DNA of 64,000 bases, taken from NCBI RefSeq assembly GCF_021502585.1, contig NZ_JAKFGM010000001.1, positions 558,001 through 622,000 of the forward strand, in the 5' to 3' direction. The notes below the pieces were generated by a model that ran no database searches, was not told the origin of the DNA, and was given only the letters and a program-made list of their open reading frames with translations. This DNA comes from Sphingomonas cremea. Its GTDB lineage: Bacteria > Pseudomonadota > Alphaproteobacteria > Sphingomonadales > Sphingomonadaceae. Shown here piece by piece: positions 2,401-46,050 of the stretch (the stretch's first letter is position 1; every line of letters begins with the position of its first letter). The translations under genes and the position numbers were made by a program.

Positions 2401-3864
2401 ATGGCGGCCAAGCAATTCGGTCCGATCGGGATCATCGATATCGGATCGAACAGCGTTCGCTTCGTGGCCTATGGCGGAATTGCCCGCGTTCCGTCGGTTC
2501 TCTTCAATGAGAAAGTGATGGCCGCGCTGGGCCGCGGCCTGGCGCGCGATGGAATGCTGGACGAGCAGGCGATGGAGCTGACCCTCCGGTCGCTGGCGAG
2601 ATTTCGTCAGCTGGGGAGGGAGATGGGGCTCAAGAAGCTTCACACAGTGGCAACGGCCGCAGTGCGCGATGCCAGCAATGGGCCGGCATTCCTCAAACGC
2701 ATTGCGGCGCTCGGCCTCAAGCCGCGGCTGCTGCCTGGACAAGAGGAAGCGGAATTGTCGGGGCTGGGGGTCATCTCCGCGATTCCGCAGGCCCGAGGAG
2801 TTGTCGCGGATCTTGGCGGCGGCAGCCTGGAGCTGATCGGTGTCGCGCGCGGAGCGGCGGGGGAGGGGGTGTCACTTCCGCTGGGCTCGCTTCGGGTCGG
2901 CAGCGCCCCTGACAAGGCCGTGATCGTCGGCGCGCTCAAGGCCGGACTTAAGCAAAGCCGGCTGCGCAGTGCCGCCCGGGACCAAGGACTCTACCTGGTC
3001 GGCGGATCGTTCCGCGCCCTCGCGCTGCTCGACATGAAGACGTCCGGGCACCCGCTCCCGATCGTCCACAATCATCGGATCGCGGCAGGGCGGTTGTCCG
3101 ACCTTCGAGCCATACTGGGTACCTTGGCAATCGAAGAACTGGGGATGCTGACGGGAATTTCCAGCTCCCGCATCCCGACGCTTCCGGCGGCCGCAACAAT
3201 ATTAGAGGCGATGATCGAGACGCTTGGCCCGAAGCGAATCGTGGTTTCGGCGTTCGGCCTTCGTGAAGGCCTGCTCTACCGTGACCTCACGGAAGATGTG
3301 CGACATCAGGATCCGCTGCTCGCCGCGGCCGTGGAGGTTGGGGAGCAGCTCGGCAGGTTTGGTGACCATGGCGCCGCAATCGATCAGTGGATGGATCCGA
3401 TCTTTCCCGACGAAAGCGCCGAAATGCAGCGTTTGCGCCTGGCCGCCTGCCTTTTGGGCGACATCGCTTGGAATGCTCATCCCGACTTTCGTGCCGAGCG
3501 CGCTGTCGACATGGCGATCCATGGCAATTGGGTCGGCATAGACGCCCATGGCCGAGCGGTATTGGGTCGGGGCCTGAGCGCTGCTTTCGGCGGAGACAGC
3601 GGGTTCGATCCTCGCTTGGCGGCGCTGTTGAAGCCTGGAGAATCCGACCGGGTACTCTCCTGGGGACGCGCGCTGCGCCTTGCCCAGCGCCTATCGGGAG
3701 GGACCGAGGCATTGCTAAGAAGGACGGAGATTGCGCTCGAGCCCGGCAGGGTGGTCCTGATGATCCCGGCCAAATATCGCGAACTATATGCGGGTGCGGT
3801 TGAGCGGCGGCTCCAGCAACTTGCCAAGTCGCTTGGCCGGATTGGTGAACCGCGCTTTACCTAG
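2401..3864 (+). CDS. ppx: Exopolyphosphatase, Ppx/GppA family
   Basis: Releases terminal phosphates from polyphosphate; some family members also hydrolyse pppGpp. The ASKHA-fold phosphate-binding motif IIDIGSNSVRFVAYGG is at the N-terminus and the second glycine motif DLGGGSLELIGVARG around residue 140. The 487-residue length includes the C-terminal helical HD-like half of the long Ppx type. It starts one base after ppk1, so the pair is an operon. Its TAG stop lies in a CTAG shared with the stop of the convergent gene. Which substrate it prefers cannot be read from the sequence. Confidence 0.93.
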   Translation: MAAKQFGPIGIIDIGSNSVRFVAYGGIARVPSVLFNEKVMAALGRGLARDGMLDEQAMELTLRSLARFRQLGREMGLKKLHTVATAAVRDASNGPAFLKRIAALGLKPRLLPGQEEAELSGLGVISAIPQARGVVADLGGGSLELIGVARGAAGEGVSLPLGSLRVGSAPDKAVIVGALKAGLKQSRLRSAARDQGLYLVGGSFRALALLDMKTSGHPLPIVHNHRIAAGRLSDLRAILGTLAIEELGMLTGISSSRIPTLPAAATILEAMIETLGPKRIVVSAFGLREGLLYRDLTEDVRHQDPLLAAAVEVGEQLGRFGDHGAAIDQWMDPIFPDESAEMQRLRLAACLLGDIAWNAHPDFRAERAVDMAIHGNWVGIDAHGRAVLGRGLSAAFGGDSGFDPRLAALLKPGESDRVLSWGRALRLAQRLSGGTEALLRRTEIALEPGRVVLMIPAKYRELYAGAVERRLQQLAKSLGRIGEPRFT

Positions 3865-41704: not shown

Positions 41705-42156
41705 GGATTGAGCATGAAGGTGCCGGTTGCATAGGCAATCGGGCGGTTAGCATCGCCGCCATGCGCAGCGCCGCGAATGAATGCCACCTGCCGGGTCAGC
41801 TTATAGCATTCGCAGCGAGCAATGACCGTCTCGCCCTTCACAGCGGGCCGGAGATAGTCGAGCCGCAAGTCGATGGTGACGAGCGGCTGGAAATGGCCGA
41901 GTGCCATCCATACTGACGATCCGCCGCATGTATCCAGCAAGCTGACGATTGCCCCCGATGCCAGGATGCCTTCCTCGGGGATGCCGACCAGCTCTTCGCG
42001 CCAGGGGAGGGCCAGTTCGATCCAATTGTCGGCGGACTGGCGATACTCGAGGCCCAGCGCGCGGCCATGCCCGACGCTTCGTGCAAGCTTGAAAAATTGC
42101 TGGGGATCGAAGCTGCCGCTCTTACGCATCGCGGCGATTTCAGGGTCTTCGCTCAT
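41701..42156 (-). CDS. PaaI-type thioesterase
   Basis: Hot-dog-fold acyl-CoA thioesterase of 151 residues. IPEEGILASGAIVSLLDTCG, VWMALGHFQPLVTIDLRLDY and LRPAVKGETVIARCECYKL are the typical segments; the active-site Asp is in LLDTCGG. Substrates of the family are aryl or medium-chain acyl-CoAs. It starts inside the end of sufE (ATGA overlap), so it is expressed with it. It converges on the J-domain gene. Confidence 0.85.
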   Translation of the reverse strand: MSEDPEIAAMRKSGSFDPQQFFKLARSVGHGRALGLEYRQSADNWIELALPWREELVGIPEEGILASGAIVSLLDTCGGSSVWMALGHFQPLVTIDLRLDYLRPAVKGETVIARCECYKLTRQVAFIRGAAHGGDANRPIAYATGTFMLNP

Positions 42157-42572
42157 GCTGCGGCTAGCCGCGCGGCGGTCTCGCGAACCAGGGCGATCAT
42201 GTTCGGCACCCCCTGCGTGCGGTTCGACGACAATTCGCGGGTCAGGTTGAACGGCTCGAGCAGCTGTCGAATGTCCATCGCCGCGACCTCGGCTGGCGGG
42301 CGATCCTGGACTGCCGACAGGATCAGCGCCACGACGCCCTTGGTGATCGCGGCATTGCTGTCGGCAAGGAAATGGAGTCGGCCATCGGGCAGGCGTGTCG
42401 GGTAGACCCAGGTCGAGGACGAGCAGCCACGGACCTTGGTAGCGTCAGTCTTAAGCGCCTCGGGCATCGGCTCAAGCTTTCGGCCCAGCTCGATCAGCAA
42501 CCGGTAGCGGTCCTCGCTGTCGAGGAACTCATATTCTTCGGCAATATCGGCAAGGGCGGGGAGGGCGGTCAT
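42153..42572 (-). CDS. sufE: SufE-like sulfur acceptor protein
   Basis: Cysteine-desulfurase partner for iron-sulfur cluster assembly. The 139 residues start ALADIAEEYEFLDSEDRYRL and carry the sulfur-accepting Cys in VRGCSSSTWVYPTRLPDGRL, as in SufE/CsdE. The ATG at 42572 is preferred to the upstream start at 42599. The last four bases overlap the thioesterase start. It lies 37 bases after the last small gene of the psp region on the same strand. No other suf genes are present here. Confidence 0.9.
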   Translation of the reverse strand: MTALPALADIAEEYEFLDSEDRYRLLIELGRKLEPMPEALKTDATKVRGCSSSTWVYPTRLPDGRLHFLADSNAAITKGVVALILSAVQDRPPAEVAAMDIRQLLEPFNLTRELSSNRTQGVPNMIALVRETAARLAAA

Positions 42573-42609
42573 TGCCCGAGCGCCTAGCGCGGACCGCACC
42601 TCAAGTCAT

Positions 42610-42852
42610 CTAGCGGTCGCGCAATTCCTCTATTTGGCGGGACAGCGTATCCTCTTTCTCGACCGCGATCCGCTCCAGAACATGGATGCGATCCTTGAGC
42701 TGCTTGACCTCATCGCGCAGCCGAAGCGTTTCCGCGCGCTCTTCGGCCGAAACTTCAGGCCCGCGATGTCGACTATGGCCATATTTCGCACGGAGGACCG
42801 ACGCGACCATCACGGCCACCACGATAACCGCTACCATTTCAAAGGGGTTCAC
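42610..42852 (-). CDS. Small membrane protein, PspB-like C-terminus (third extra gene)
   Basis: An 80-residue protein: one N-terminal transmembrane helix (FEMVAVIVVAVMVASVL) and a coiled coil. The C-terminal motif RIHVLERIAVE (from residue 55) then LSRQIEEL matches the C-terminal motif of pspB, pspC and the two neighbouring genes. Its start overlaps the stop of the preceding gene by four bases. It is the promoter-distal member of the expanded psp operon. Function unknown; membrane-associated, with a cytoplasmic coiled coil, is the inference. Confidence 0.78.
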   Translation of the reverse strand: MNPFEMVAVIVVAVMVASVLRAKYGHSRHRGPEVSAEERAETLRLRDEVKQLKDRIHVLERIAVEKEDTLSRQIEELRDR

Positions 42853-43133
42853 TGGACCTTGTCTCCCTTGGTCAGGCGCGGTGAGCGCAGCGCCTCGATC
42901 TGAGCGGCGGTTTCGATTCCGCCGTCCGTGACGATCTTTTCCAACACCCTGACGCGCGCTTCAAGCTCCGCGTTCGATGCGGCATATTGCGCGGCCTTTT
43001 CCGCAGCCCGGTTCGCCTCAATCTCCATCCGCTTTTCTTTGAGGGTGAACCATCGGTGCAGGATCAGGGTCAGCCCGATTACGGGAATTCCAACCACGAA
43101 CAGGGCAACAAAGACTTCCCCAGGGCCGATCAT
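42849..43133 (-). CDS. Small membrane protein, PspB-like C-terminus (second extra gene)
   Basis: A 94-residue protein with an N-terminal transmembrane helix (VFVALFVVGIPVIGLTLIL), a charged linker and a coiled coil. The motif RVRVLEKIVTD (from residue 60) and TAAQIEAL align with the motif in pspB, pspC and the adjacent genes. It overlaps both neighbours by four bases (ATGA), which indicates tight translational coupling. It probably anchors in the inner membrane with its coiled coil in the cytoplasm. Confidence 0.8.
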   Translation of the reverse strand: MIGPGEVFVALFVVGIPVIGLTLILHRWFTLKEKRMEIEANRAAEKAAQYAASNAELEARVRVLEKIVTDGGIETAAQIEALRSPRLTKGDKVQ

Positions 43134-43474
43134 GCATGTCCACCATTGTCGATCGCCAGCTGATCGATTTCCTTGGCCAGTCGCAGAGGCTGGTCGGTGA
43201 CAATCCGCTCAATCGTTTCAAGCCTGTCCTTGACCGAGCCAAGTTCGGCGCGGAGCTGCGCATTCTCGCCAGTAAGCAGCTTGATCCGCTCCATCGCTTC
43301 CTTGTCGGTGCGGGGATGAAGCGCCTGGCCCCATGCACCATCCAGCGGATAACCGTTCTTGATCCTGAGCCAGGTCGTCAAAACCCAGCCGCCGACCCCT
43401 ATCGCGACAATGGTGATGATGAATGGGAACATCTCGGAGACTTTTTCCAGCCAAATTGCGTTCTCAGGATTCAT
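43130..43474 (-). CDS. Small membrane protein, PspB-like C-terminus (first extra gene)
   Basis: A 114-residue protein with a short N-terminal segment, one transmembrane helix (FPFIITIVAIGVGGWVL), a linker and a coiled coil. The motif RLETIERIVTD (from residue 84) and LAKEIDQL is the closest match in the operon to pspB. GGGGGA lies six bases before the ATG. It begins 27 bases after pspC and its stop overlaps the next start. Confidence 0.8.
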   Translation of the reverse strand: MNPENAIWLEKVSEMFPFIITIVAIGVGGWVLTTWLRIKNGYPLDGAWGQALHPRTDKEAMERIKLLTGENAQLRAELGSVKDRLETIERIVTDQPLRLAKEIDQLAIDNGGHA

Positions 43475-43501
43475 GCATTCCCCCGGAATATGGGCTTTAA
43501 A

Positions 43502-43888
43502 CTATCGCAGCTGCTCGATTTCGCGGGCAAGGCTGCGGTTCTCGGTTGTGACATAGCTTTCGATGTCGGCAATGCGCCGGTCGATGTCGCGCATCCGACT
43601 GCGAATATCGCGGGCCGAGCGGGCCGGCGACTGCCGTACGCCCTGCCAGAAGCGCTGCTCCTCGCGGTCGTCCAGCGCCAATTCACGCGGTTTGTCGTCG
43701 GCGATGAAGCCGGCGATGAAATAGAGAGGAAGGACGCTTCCGCCGCTCATGAGAACGGCGCTGACGAACATGATGCGGACAAGCGTCACGTCCAGTCCGG
43801 TGTAGTCGGCAATGCCCGAGCACACGCCCATCAATTTGCCATGGCGCTTGTCGAGATAGAATTTCGTTCGGCTTGGAGGCTGGGTCAT
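43502..43888 (-). CDS. pspC: PspC envelope-stress protein
   Basis: A 128-residue PspC-domain protein: KLMGVCSGIADYTGLDVTLV, then RIMFVSAVLMSGGSVLPLYF, the usual sensor pattern. The C-terminal part is not usual PspC; RIADIESYVTTENRSLAREI (from residue 105) resembles the motif of PspB and the three small downstream proteins. PspC normally senses envelope damage with PspB. The start overlaps the pspB stop by four bases. Confidence 0.9.
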   Translation of the reverse strand: MTQPPSRTKFYLDKRHGKLMGVCSGIADYTGLDVTLVRIMFVSAVLMSGGSVLPLYFIAGFIADDKPRELALDDREEQRFWQGVRQSPARSARDIRSRMRDIDRRIADIESYVTTENRSLAREIEQLR

Positions 43889-44163
43889 TTGGCATACTCG
43901 TCGTCGGTCAGGAGGCGCTGGCGATTGCTTTCCGGCAATGCGTGCTGGCGCCAGTTGGGGTTTTCTGCGGTCATGATCCGTTCGATCGTGTTCAGCCGAT
44001 CGTCCAGGCGGCGGGCGGCATCATGCAATTCGTCGAGCAGTTTCTCATCGGATCCAGTGAGCCGAGCCGACGTCTTCCATTTGGTGATGTAGTGGAAAAT
44101 CAGCCACGGCAGCCCGATGAACAGGACCGGGACGACGATCAGCGGAACCAGGACGTCTTCCAT
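43885..44163 (-). CDS. pspB: PspB envelope-stress membrane protein
   Basis: A 92-residue protein with one membrane helix (LVPLIVVPVLFIGLPWLIF) and a coiled coil with RLNTIERIMTAENPNWRQ (from residue 56). Length and the LxxxARRLDDRLNTIERI pattern fit PspB, which with PspC antagonises PspA-PspF. It starts three bases after pspA. The stop overlaps the pspC start. Confidence 0.9.
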   Translation of the reverse strand: MEDVLVPLIVVPVLFIGLPWLIFHYITKWKTSARLTGSDEKLLDELHDAARRLDDRLNTIERIMTAENPNWRQHALPESNRQRLLTDDEYAK

Positions 44164-44166
44164 TTA

Positions 44167-44835
44167 CTAAGCCCCCTTGGCCTTGAGTGCGGCCTTCATT
44201 GCCTCCAGCTCCGCATCGACCTTGTCGGTCGAACGCAGTTCGGCGATTTCTTCCTCCAGGCTTTTCGGCCCGGTCATGCCCAGCGCATCGGCGCGGCCCT
44301 CTGCAAAGTCGGCGCGCCGCTCCAACTGGTCGAATCTCGAAAACGCATCTTCGGTGCGGCTGCCGTTGAGCAGTTCCCGTGCCTTGGCCCGGGTCACCGC
44401 GCTTTCGATCCGCGTCGCAATCGCATTCTGGCGAGCCCGAGCTTCGCGCAGCTTGCCCTGCAATTTGGCGATGTCAGCTTCATAGCCCTTCAGCGTATCC
44501 TCGATTGACGTCAGCTCGGCCTGAAGGCCTTCGGCCATGTCGGCCGCCTTTTGCCGTTCGATCAGCGCCGCCTTGGCCAGGTCCTCGCGGTCCTTGCTCA
44601 GCGCCAGTTCGGCCTTTTCGGTCCAGCTCGACTGCAATTCGTTGAGACGGACAAGCGCCCGCTTCATTTCCTTGCTGTCAGCAATCGAACGCGCGGCCGA
44701 GGCACGAACCTCGACCAACGTTTCTTCCATTTCTAGAATGATCATGCGGATCATCCGCGCCGGATCTTCGGCACGGTCCAGCAGCTCAGTGAAATTGGCT
44801 GCGAAAATATCCCGAGTTCGGGAAAAAATACCCAT
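44167..44835 (-). CDS. pspA: Phage shock protein A
   Basis: Membrane-stabilising and PspF-inhibiting protein of the PspA/IM30 ESCRT-III family, 222 residues. GIFSRTRDIFAANFTELLDR is the typical first helix, followed by DPARMIRMIILEMEETLVEV. The rest is a long coiled coil, usual length. It is the first gene of the operon and starts about 28 bases from a predicted sigma-54 transcription start. Confidence 0.95.
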   Translation of the reverse strand: MGIFSRTRDIFAANFTELLDRAEDPARMIRMIILEMEETLVEVRASAARSIADSKEMKRALVRLNELQSSWTEKAELALSKDREDLAKAALIERQKAADMAEGLQAELTSIEDTLKGYEADIAKLQGKLREARARQNAIATRIESAVTRAKARELLNGSRTEDAFSRFDQLERRADFAEGRADALGMTGPKSLEEEIAELRSTDKVDAELEAMKAALKAKGA

Positions 44836-44872: not shown

Positions 44873-44890
44873 ATGCAGGCTTTATGCCAA
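44873..44890 (-). promoter_or_regulatory. Sigma-54 promoter of the psp operon
   Basis: Read on the minus strand, TTGGCATAAAGCCTGCAT contains GG and GC exactly ten bases apart, the -24/-12 signature. The expected start is near 44863, 28 bases before the pspA ATG. The PspF-type activator gene is next door, on the other strand. Confidence 0.75.
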
Positions 44891-45009: not shown

Positions 45010-46050
45010 TTGGAGCGGGCCAATCAATTTGTCGGTCAAAGCCTGGCCTTTCTCGACGCTGTCGAGCGGGCGAGCCGTGCCGCACCGCTCAATCGCCCGG
45101 TGCTGGTAATCGGCGAGCGTGGCACCGGCAAGGAGCTGATTGCCGAGCGCCTCCATCACCTTTCGTCGCGCTGGGCCGGGCCGCTCGTGGCGATGAATTG
45201 CGCCGCCATGCCTGAAAATCTGATTGAGGCCGAACTGTTCGGGCATGAGGCTGGCAGCTTCACTGGCGCCGCGAAGACTCGTCACGGGCGGTTCGAAGAG
45301 TCTGACGGCGGCACCCTGTTCCTGGATGAGCTTGCGACTCTGTCGTCGCCGGCGCAGGATCGGCTTCTTCGCGCTGTGGAATATGGCGAGATCACCCGCA
45401 TCGGCGCCTCCAAGCCAATCTCTGTCGATGTGCGAATTGTCGCGGCGACCAACGAGCATCTTCCACGCTTGGTGGAAGAGGGGCGGTTCCGAGCCGACTT
45501 GCTGGATCGCTTGTCGTTCGAGGTTGTAACCCTTCCGCCGCTTCGCGCGCGCAAAGGCGATATTCCGCTGCTCGCAGAGCATTTCGGCCGTCGAATGGCT
45601 GTTGAGCTCGATTGGCCCAACTGGCCGGGCTTTTCCGCCAGCGCACTGGCGGAGCTTGAGGCATATCAATGGCCGGGCAATGTCCGTGAACTGCGCAATG
45701 TCGTTGAACGCGCGGTCTATCGCGCCGATGATCCGGAGCGCGAAATAGATGCGATCCAGTTCGACCCGTTCGCATCTCCTTGGGTGCTGAGCCATGATCC
45801 GGCCGGTGCGGTCGAGGTTGCGGCTCATGCGTCCCAGCCGACGACGGCTGCAAGCGAGGCGGCCGCTCCCGCGCCACCCGCCACCACTTCGGATTTGCGC
45901 GGCGCGGTCAACGCCTATGAAAAGGCGCTACTTGAGGACGCGCTGGCGCGCCACCGTTACAACCAACGTTCCACCGCGGCGGCGCTGGGATTGAGCTACG
46001 ACCAGCTTCGCCACGCGATGAAGCGGCATCAGTTGGCAATCAGCGGCTGA
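45010..46050 (+). CDS. pspF: Phage shock operon transcriptional activator PspF
   Basis: Sigma-54-dependent enhancer-binding protein, 346 residues without an N-terminal regulatory domain, as PspF. Walker A is GERGTGKELIAERLHHLSS, the sigma-54 contact loop GHEAGSFTGAAKTRHGRF (GSFTGA where the usual form is GAFTGA), Walker B ESDGGTLFLDELATLS. The C-terminal Fis-type helix-turn-helix is NQRSTAAALGLSYDQLRHAM. The start is a TTG at 45010 with GGAG six bases upstream. It is divergent from pspA and would be inhibited by PspA. A hairpin lies after its stop. Confidence 0.93.
   Translation: MERANQFVGQSLAFLDAVERASRAAPLNRPVLVIGERGTGKELIAERLHHLSSRWAGPLVAMNCAAMPENLIEAELFGHEAGSFTGAAKTRHGRFEESDGGTLFLDELATLSSPAQDRLLRAVEYGEITRIGASKPISVDVRIVAATNEHLPRLVEEGRFRADLLDRLSFEVVTLPPLRARKGDIPLLAEHFGRRMAVELDWPNWPGFSASALAELEAYQWPGNVRELRNVVERAVYRADDPEREIDAIQFDPFASPWVLSHDPAGAVEVAAHASQPTTAASEAAAPAPPATTSDLRGAVNAYEKALLEDALARHRYNQRSTAAALGLSYDQLRHAMKRHQLAISG

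Follow-up and report, generated by a model that had tools for sequence, protein, structure and literature searches.

A family-wide expansion of the Psp membrane module in sphingomonads: PspB-related proteins with a PspC-type tail

The closest described systems to the locus studied here are the membrane components of the Psp response in Escherichia coli and the variants of this response found in genome comparisons. In E. coli, passages of one study of PspB and PspC report that a leucine zipper in the C-terminal part of PspC is needed for the interaction with PspA and for psp induction, that the contact between PspB and PspC maps to their membrane regions, not to the zippers, and that the PspB zipper binds ArcB (PMC3068692). 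Regarding gene content, passages of Ravi et al. 2024 report fusions in which a divergent PspB forms the C-terminus of PspC, as well as PspB duplicates in some operons (PMC11237479). The Psp survey of Popp et al. 2022, in the passages on gene copies, reports several paralogues in >10% of PspA-only or PspC-only genomes and proposes that PspC copies may integrate different stimuli (PMC9239133).

The operon that we analysed is encoded on the minus strand of a window of 64,000 nucleotides from Sphingomonas cremea (the window being the whole stretch of DNA that was analysed; the genome has 2.55 Mb). It has the order pspA-pspB-pspC-X-Y-Z, then sufE, with a divergent pspF (Table 1). The four psp genes score above the TIGR equivalog cut-offs and are also positive in Pfam; all of them score below the cut-offs of the like-named NF/PRK models. 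The frames of X, Y, and Z are open, and each protein has one hydrophobic stretch near the N-terminus. Neighbouring genes overlap by 4 bases at pspB-pspC, X-Y, and Y-Z, and a gap of 27 bases separates pspC from X. A previous sequence-only reading of this DNA had given the order of pspA, pspB, pspC, and three further overlapping genes, the coordinates 42610-44163, and a single transmembrane helix for each of the three; the order and coordinates agree with the sequence, and each of the three has one hydrophobic segment. Among the best 80 of 124 loci chosen by an X relative, the most similar X proteins from named species are those of Sphingomonas caseinilyticus (74%) and S. edaphi (72%). The dN/dS of X, Y, and Z is 0.03-0.37 against the loci L061 and L062, at high dS (0.63-2.17).

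Table 1. Coordinates of the psp locus, of the tails of its small proteins, and of a promoter-like site in the window.
Feature	Coordinates	Strand	Details
sufE	42153..42599	-	downstream neighbour of Z
gene Z	42610..42852	-	80 aa, GTG start; hydrophobic segment near start, tail
Z tail RIHVLERIAVEKEDTLSRQIEELR	42619..42690	-	alignment and column counts
gene Y	42849..43133	-	94 aa; hydrophobic segment, AEKAAQYAA coiled coil, tail
Y tail RVRVLEKIVTDGGIETAAQIEALR	42885..42956	-	alignment and column counts
gene X	43130..43474	-	114 aa; hydrophobic segment, K[NH]GYPLxxxW juxtamembrane motif, coiled coil, PspC-type tail
X tail RLETIERIVTDQPLRLAKEIDQL	43157..43225	-	alignment and column counts
pspC	43502..43888	-	TIGR02978 128.5 bits, cut-off 104, matched to the model's last position
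PspC tail RIADIESYVTTENRSLAREIEQLR	43505..43576	-	both halves
pspB	43885..44163	-	PF06667 93.2 bits; TIGR02976 86.1 bits, cut-off 51.7
PspB tail RLNTIERIMTAENPNW	43951..43998	-	contains just the tail's first half
pspA	44167..44835	-	TIGR02977 264 bits, cut-off 243
sigma54-promoter-like site TGGCATAAAGCCTGCA	44874..44889	-	54 nt before pspA; 2 mismatches to a sigma54 consensus
pspF	45010..46050	+	divergent sigma54 activator; TIGR02974 485 bits, cut-off 443.6

Profile comparisons relate the extra proteins to each other and to PspB. With hhalign, X, Y, Z, and a further class, X', give 97-99.9% against each other. Against the whole PspB of the outgroup (psp loci of the same order but outside the family, which is Sphingomonadaceae in the GTDB sense, as judged from named relatives), Y gives 95.6% and Z 91.0%, and X gives 16.3% directly and is linked via X' (65.2%), Y, and Z. 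The value of X against the family's PspC is 89.5%. Profiles restricted to the tail give 11-36% for the outgroup PspB tail and 0.5-18% for the outgroup PspC tail. The Pfam model of PspB (PF06667, cut-off 25.6 bits) is not reached by Z (25.3 bits at full length, 25.0 without the first residue) or Y (15.6 bits) and has no match in X; at E<=0.01, it matches 3/26 Z, 6/22 Y, and 0/24 X among the family members. The cut-off of TIGR02976 (51.7 bits) is not reached by Z either (22.7 bits, first residue missing), and X and Y have no listed match to this model. Since they are under the PspB cut-offs, we class X, Y, and Z, all encoded within the pspF-pspABC locus, as PspB-related and not as PspB. The PspC model TIGR02978 matches residues 56-106 of X (E=0.0029).

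Single X proteins match bZIP_1 (10/24), DUF4164 (6), and ZapB (5) in Pfam at E<=0.01, and not PspB, as one would expect if the extra proteins were generic coiled coils, alike by chance. As a control we used FtsB, a coiled-coil protein that spans the membrane once, taken from the same bacterial family (17 of the 30 fetched loci, the other 13 being dropped when a simple pattern missed the gene). In hhalign, none of X, X', Y, and Z exceeds 1.4% against FtsB, and the W class gives 5%. The searches were also specific. In its own genome, the Z profile matched X, Y, and Z only at E<=1e-4, with 19 of the 33 first-look candidates scored. Across the class, it matched 7/289 genomes (4 labelled as the same family, G507 at 1.8e-19, and two weak ones), and the X profile matched 4/289, all labelled as the same family; these counts come from the best 16 (X) or best 19 (Z) first-look candidates per genome, in a set whose share of family members is not fixed, as the matchless genomes are only partly named. 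The control and the specificity searches contradict a chance likeness, which we regard as extremely improbable, and they rule out generic coiled coil as the explanation of the tail. The sequence-only reading would have dropped its array idea had the motif proved to be generic coiled coil and the gene order not been kept in homologues; neither is the case in these searches and in the family operons sampled.

The tail has two parts, of the form R...hE..h.T, then L..EI[ED].LR, which stand in the same register in X and Y, and Z has an indel in the second part. All five C-terminal strings that the sequence-only reading had quoted, for PspB, PspC, X, Y, and Z, are present in the sequence. Its view that the five proteins share one motif holds for the first half, common to all five; it does not hold for the second element, EI[ED]xLR, which is present in PspC, X, Y, and Z (with the indel) and absent from PspB. 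The same reading had supposed that PspC normally lacks this tail, which is wrong: the tail occurs in E. coli PspC (L141), whose C-terminal end is RLREMERYVTSDTFTLRSRFRQL, and in 19/19 outgroup PspC, all with T-S at +5/+6 and L at +18. In this numbering, the R at -4 and the E at +1 served as anchors and are at 100% by construction. By these comparisons, the PspC of the window is not unusual, and the gain of a tail by PspC here is not supported. When 482 extra proteins were scored with tail profiles built from outgroup sequences only, the PspB-tail profile exceeded 15 bits in 115 of them (best shuffle 5.9 bits), and the PspC-tail profile did so in 57 (best shuffle 11.4 bits). Being present in E. 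coli and outgroup PspC and described in PMC11237479, the likeness between the two tails is old and already published. The extra genes reuse it.

Within each class, the N-terminal part and the core of the tail are kept to different extents. The mean pairwise identity of the N-terminal part is 0.43 in X, 0.31 in Y, 0.30 in Z, 0.54 in X', and 0.57 in PspB, and that of the tail core (-8..+6) is 0.72, 0.79, 0.66, 0.74, and 0.65, respectively. Identity is lower in the second half of the tail, at 0.49 in X, 0.42 in X', 0.30 in Z, 0.35 in PspB, and 0.64 in PspC. In the loci L106 and L109, PspB, PspC, X, and Z are 97-100% identical and the Y genes 56%, with a different membrane helix and a similar tail. 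Another locus, L081, holds both forms of Y, and differential loss of duplicates therefore explains this pair. The second half carries a charge pair at +16/+19 that is minus/plus in 117/118 family PspC, 110/128 X, 58/72 X', and 130/135 Y, and plus/minus in 14/19 outgroup PspC (the anchor pattern lost 4/122 PspC, 1/121 PspB, and 1/282 Y/Z/W, and Z was left out because of its indel). The minus/plus state, which is derived, ties the tails of the array to the family's own PspC. Two family operons without an array (L225 and L228) nevertheless keep the minus/plus PspC tail. We also considered concerted evolution of the tails within a genome and rejected it, as nine pairs of classes, compared with shuffles in 18 tests, showed no excess in 15 of them. 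The three low comparisons (<=25/1000 shuffles) were those of X and PspC in the second half (0), X' and Y in the first half (3), and Z and X' in the second half (21), each with an identity difference of ~0.02.

The combination of a shared tail with differing membrane parts suggests several sensors feeding one response. The reading we favour, to which we give about an even chance, is that the Psp response has further membrane adaptors in X, Y, and Z, i.e., several receptors feeding one PspA-PspF switch. They would be divergent relatives of PspB, expanded between pspC and sufE in the sphingomonad family, each made up of a membrane helix at the N-terminus, a coiled coil in the cytoplasm, and a tail of the PspC type. 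The membrane parts, which differ, would sense different membrane conditions or localise the proteins to them, and through the kept core of the tail all would dock on the same surface of a partner, either PspA or the tails of PspB/PspC. We infer this docking and sensing role from sequence comparisons. Given the PspC-type tail, the likeliest roles are those of extra docking sites for PspA or of extra partners of the PspC tail, and a common docking surface would fit the published work on E. coli PspC. The likeness of the tails does not fix the partner, because in E. coli PspB and PspC meet in the membrane and the PspB zipper contacts ArcB. An extended version of the adaptor reading, in which sphingomonads have a modular receptor set of <=7 adaptors that differ in their sensing helices and have in common a kept tail for docking PspA, marked by a charge pair in its second helix that the family's own PspC also has and that is reversed relative to most other families of the order, so that different membrane insults converge on one switch, is possible, although we are inclined to doubt it.

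The co-occurrence of the genes was assessed in 199 genomes of Sphingomonadaceae, 170 of which have matches to the X profile: 169/186 genomes with PspA against 1/13 without it (Fisher 1.1e-10), nine matchless genomes being identified by elimination. The lone X-positive genome without PspA (G122) is 66% complete. We take this as support and not as proof of a link between X and PspA, because the genomes are related and the genes are linked; the loss of X together with pspA may reflect linkage in the operon. If the adaptor reading is right, one kept tail with many membrane parts in one operon would be a natural separation of docking from sensing. The proteins of the array could then serve to identify the PspA-binding residues and the signal that each membrane helix answers to, which bears on the mechanism of stress sensing by PspB and PspC and of the handover of PspA.

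Flores-Kim and Darwin reportedly found in 2015 that the C-terminal domain of PspB keeps the PspC tail from PspA in Yersinia. The extra proteins might similarly be additional clamps of the OFF state, with tails that pair with that of PspC and keep it from PspA. This would suit Y and Z, which are closest to PspB in hhalign and in which the PspC-tail profile beats the PspB-tail profile in only 21/150 and 25/132 proteins, respectively. It suits X less well, since the PspC tail scores higher in 112/200 X, and X, Y, and partly Z have the second tail half of PspC that PspB lacks. We judge the clamp role unlikely.

The sequence-only reading had further proposed that the operon builds a membrane array; the physical existence of such an array is a guess. 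A heteromeric membrane scaffold of coiled coils, in which the extra proteins assemble together with PspB and PspC, would make use of the coiled coils and the common tail, and has a parallel in the self-association of PspB reported in a passage on E. coli (PMC3068692). The AlphaFold2 model of the X monomer, with a membrane helix at 3-39 and a long helix at 57-109 (pLDDT 77), speaks against it with a pTM of only 0.31, and we consider such a scaffold very unlikely. The monomer model of PspC has tail helices at 92-114 and 118-127. Searches of solved structures gave no match to PspC up to E=1, and for X and PspB they gave unrelated coiled-coil or helical chains only (E 0.26-0.68). Of the X, Y, and Z proteins, 97%, 98%, and 83%, respectively, have a charge bias that fits an N-out, C-in orientation, against only 38% of X'. 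From hydropathy and charge only, X, Y, and Z are predicted to span the membrane once.

The extra genes are found throughout the family in variable numbers. Searching within the genus with a single X sequence matched 18/25 genomes and gave no match in 7/25. From the 186 family genomes with PspA, we drew 40 loci, each from a different genus (profile E<=1e-3, W-type genes counted): 38/40 operons have 1-7 extras, and the numbers of operons with 0 to 7 extras are 2, 1, 3, 16, 7, 5, 4, and 2. The three extras described by the sequence-only reading are therefore the modal count, and not a fixed one. The best 80 of 124 loci, which are biased to X-holding operons by their choice, have 2-7 extras with a mode of 4 (40/80). 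The gene order, which that reading had proposed to check across sphingomonads, is kept throughout the family operons sampled. Of these 120 loci, 112 reach sufE, and in those 112 there are no same-strand extras outside the interval from pspC to sufE. Spacing is close, with a median of 12 bases over 600 gaps (the rule for choosing starts favours closeness), and X, Y, and Z are on this ground probably co-transcribed with the operon. A copy number that varies from 0 to 7 between operons, and near relatives (L106 and L109) with different Y copies, could reflect tandem PspB duplicates without distinct roles, under dosage or neutral turnover. However, the same classes recur across the family, dN/dS is <=0.45 in every gene across the five pairs measured, and a separate juxtamembrane motif distinguishes X, so that we regard this explanation as quite unlikely.

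Outside the family, we retrieved 20 stretches, of which L199 was left aside (it has a Z-like gene and no psp genes), leaving 19 psp loci. No PspB-like extras were found in 17 of them; the exceptions are a second PspB in L193 and a PspC-like and a Z-like gene in L202, and L185 has an extra PspC. The operon of L202, where a short PspC-like and a Z-like gene follow pspC (2659-3232), is the closest to an array that we found outside the family. Downstream of pspC, sufE, a gene of iron-sulphur assembly, occurs in 12/19 of these loci, which belong to several families of the order, possibly with intervening genes. Z-like genes also occur away from psp loci: in L199 (2971-3219, MGVFEMVVLIVLI...), from another family of the order, on a 6 kb stretch next to a 983-residue frame that by eye resembles an efflux pump, and as a pair in L293 (3727-4209, minus strand), from another family, beside genes resembling, by eye, dut, coaBC, and ubiB. 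The simplest history starts from pspABC with sufE downstream; the sphingomonad family would later have acquired a PspB-like or Z-like gene that then expanded there, the Z-like genes of L293 and L199 being possible sources or relics.

Two other kinds of genes were observed. A small membrane protein near sufE in L231 (3015-3266, minus strand) ends in KLEAIAAGVDL; this type has 21 members in the sample, is weakly related to Y and Z, and has none in the window. The genome of the window has a second locus, pspA2-pspC2 (L142 4234-5431, on G000:C4), with no pspB or pspF called in 10 kb. PspA2 is 75% identical to PspA, and the C-terminal end of PspC2 is LAREIEALRGEK. A second pspA beside a PspC-type gene is also found in the genus-mates G117, G185, and G237.

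Upstream of pspA, a sigma54-like site hints at a putative promoter. Its only support is its position, and that L061 and L062 have a comparable site at 54-55 nt; in the scan of the window, sigma54-like matches were at chance level (28 against a mean of 29.9 in shuffles). As raw counts, a strict pattern lies <=170 nt from pspA in 9/114 loci, and a looser one <=600 nt from pspA in 81/113 loci, with the chance rate not subtracted.

The expansion of the Psp membrane module is real, family-wide, and little described in the searchable literature, although the components it is made of are known. Searches combining PspB, PspC, and Sphingomonas (supplements outside the search), or phage shock, PspB, and Novosphingobium, found nothing; one on PspB paralogues returned unrelated matches only, judged by title, and a broad search on the genus gave none on Psp among the matches listed. 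The entry AOL22920.1 may come from an Erythrobacter. The main text of Ravi et al. 2024 has no Sphingo- or Erythrobacter names, and its passages on PspB mention neither the size of an array nor classes nor a pattern of kept tails (PMC11237479). Popp et al. 2022 deal with copies of PspA and PspC, in a main text without a Sphingo- or Alphaproteobacteria term (PMC9239133).

Compared with PspB itself (PF06667, TIGR02976), X, Y, and Z differ in scoring under both curated cut-offs and in carrying the PspC-type second tail half, and X alone has the K[NH]GYPLxxxW linker. They share with PspB the operon, the N-terminal membrane helix, the cytoplasmic helix, and the tail core of the R...[LIV]ERI type, and Y and Z align with it over almost their full length. 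Compared with PspC, the three proteins are without its PspC domain (PF04024, no match in Pfam), and what they resemble is its C-terminal tail (TIGR02978 positions 70-121), of which X and Y have both halves at equal spacing.
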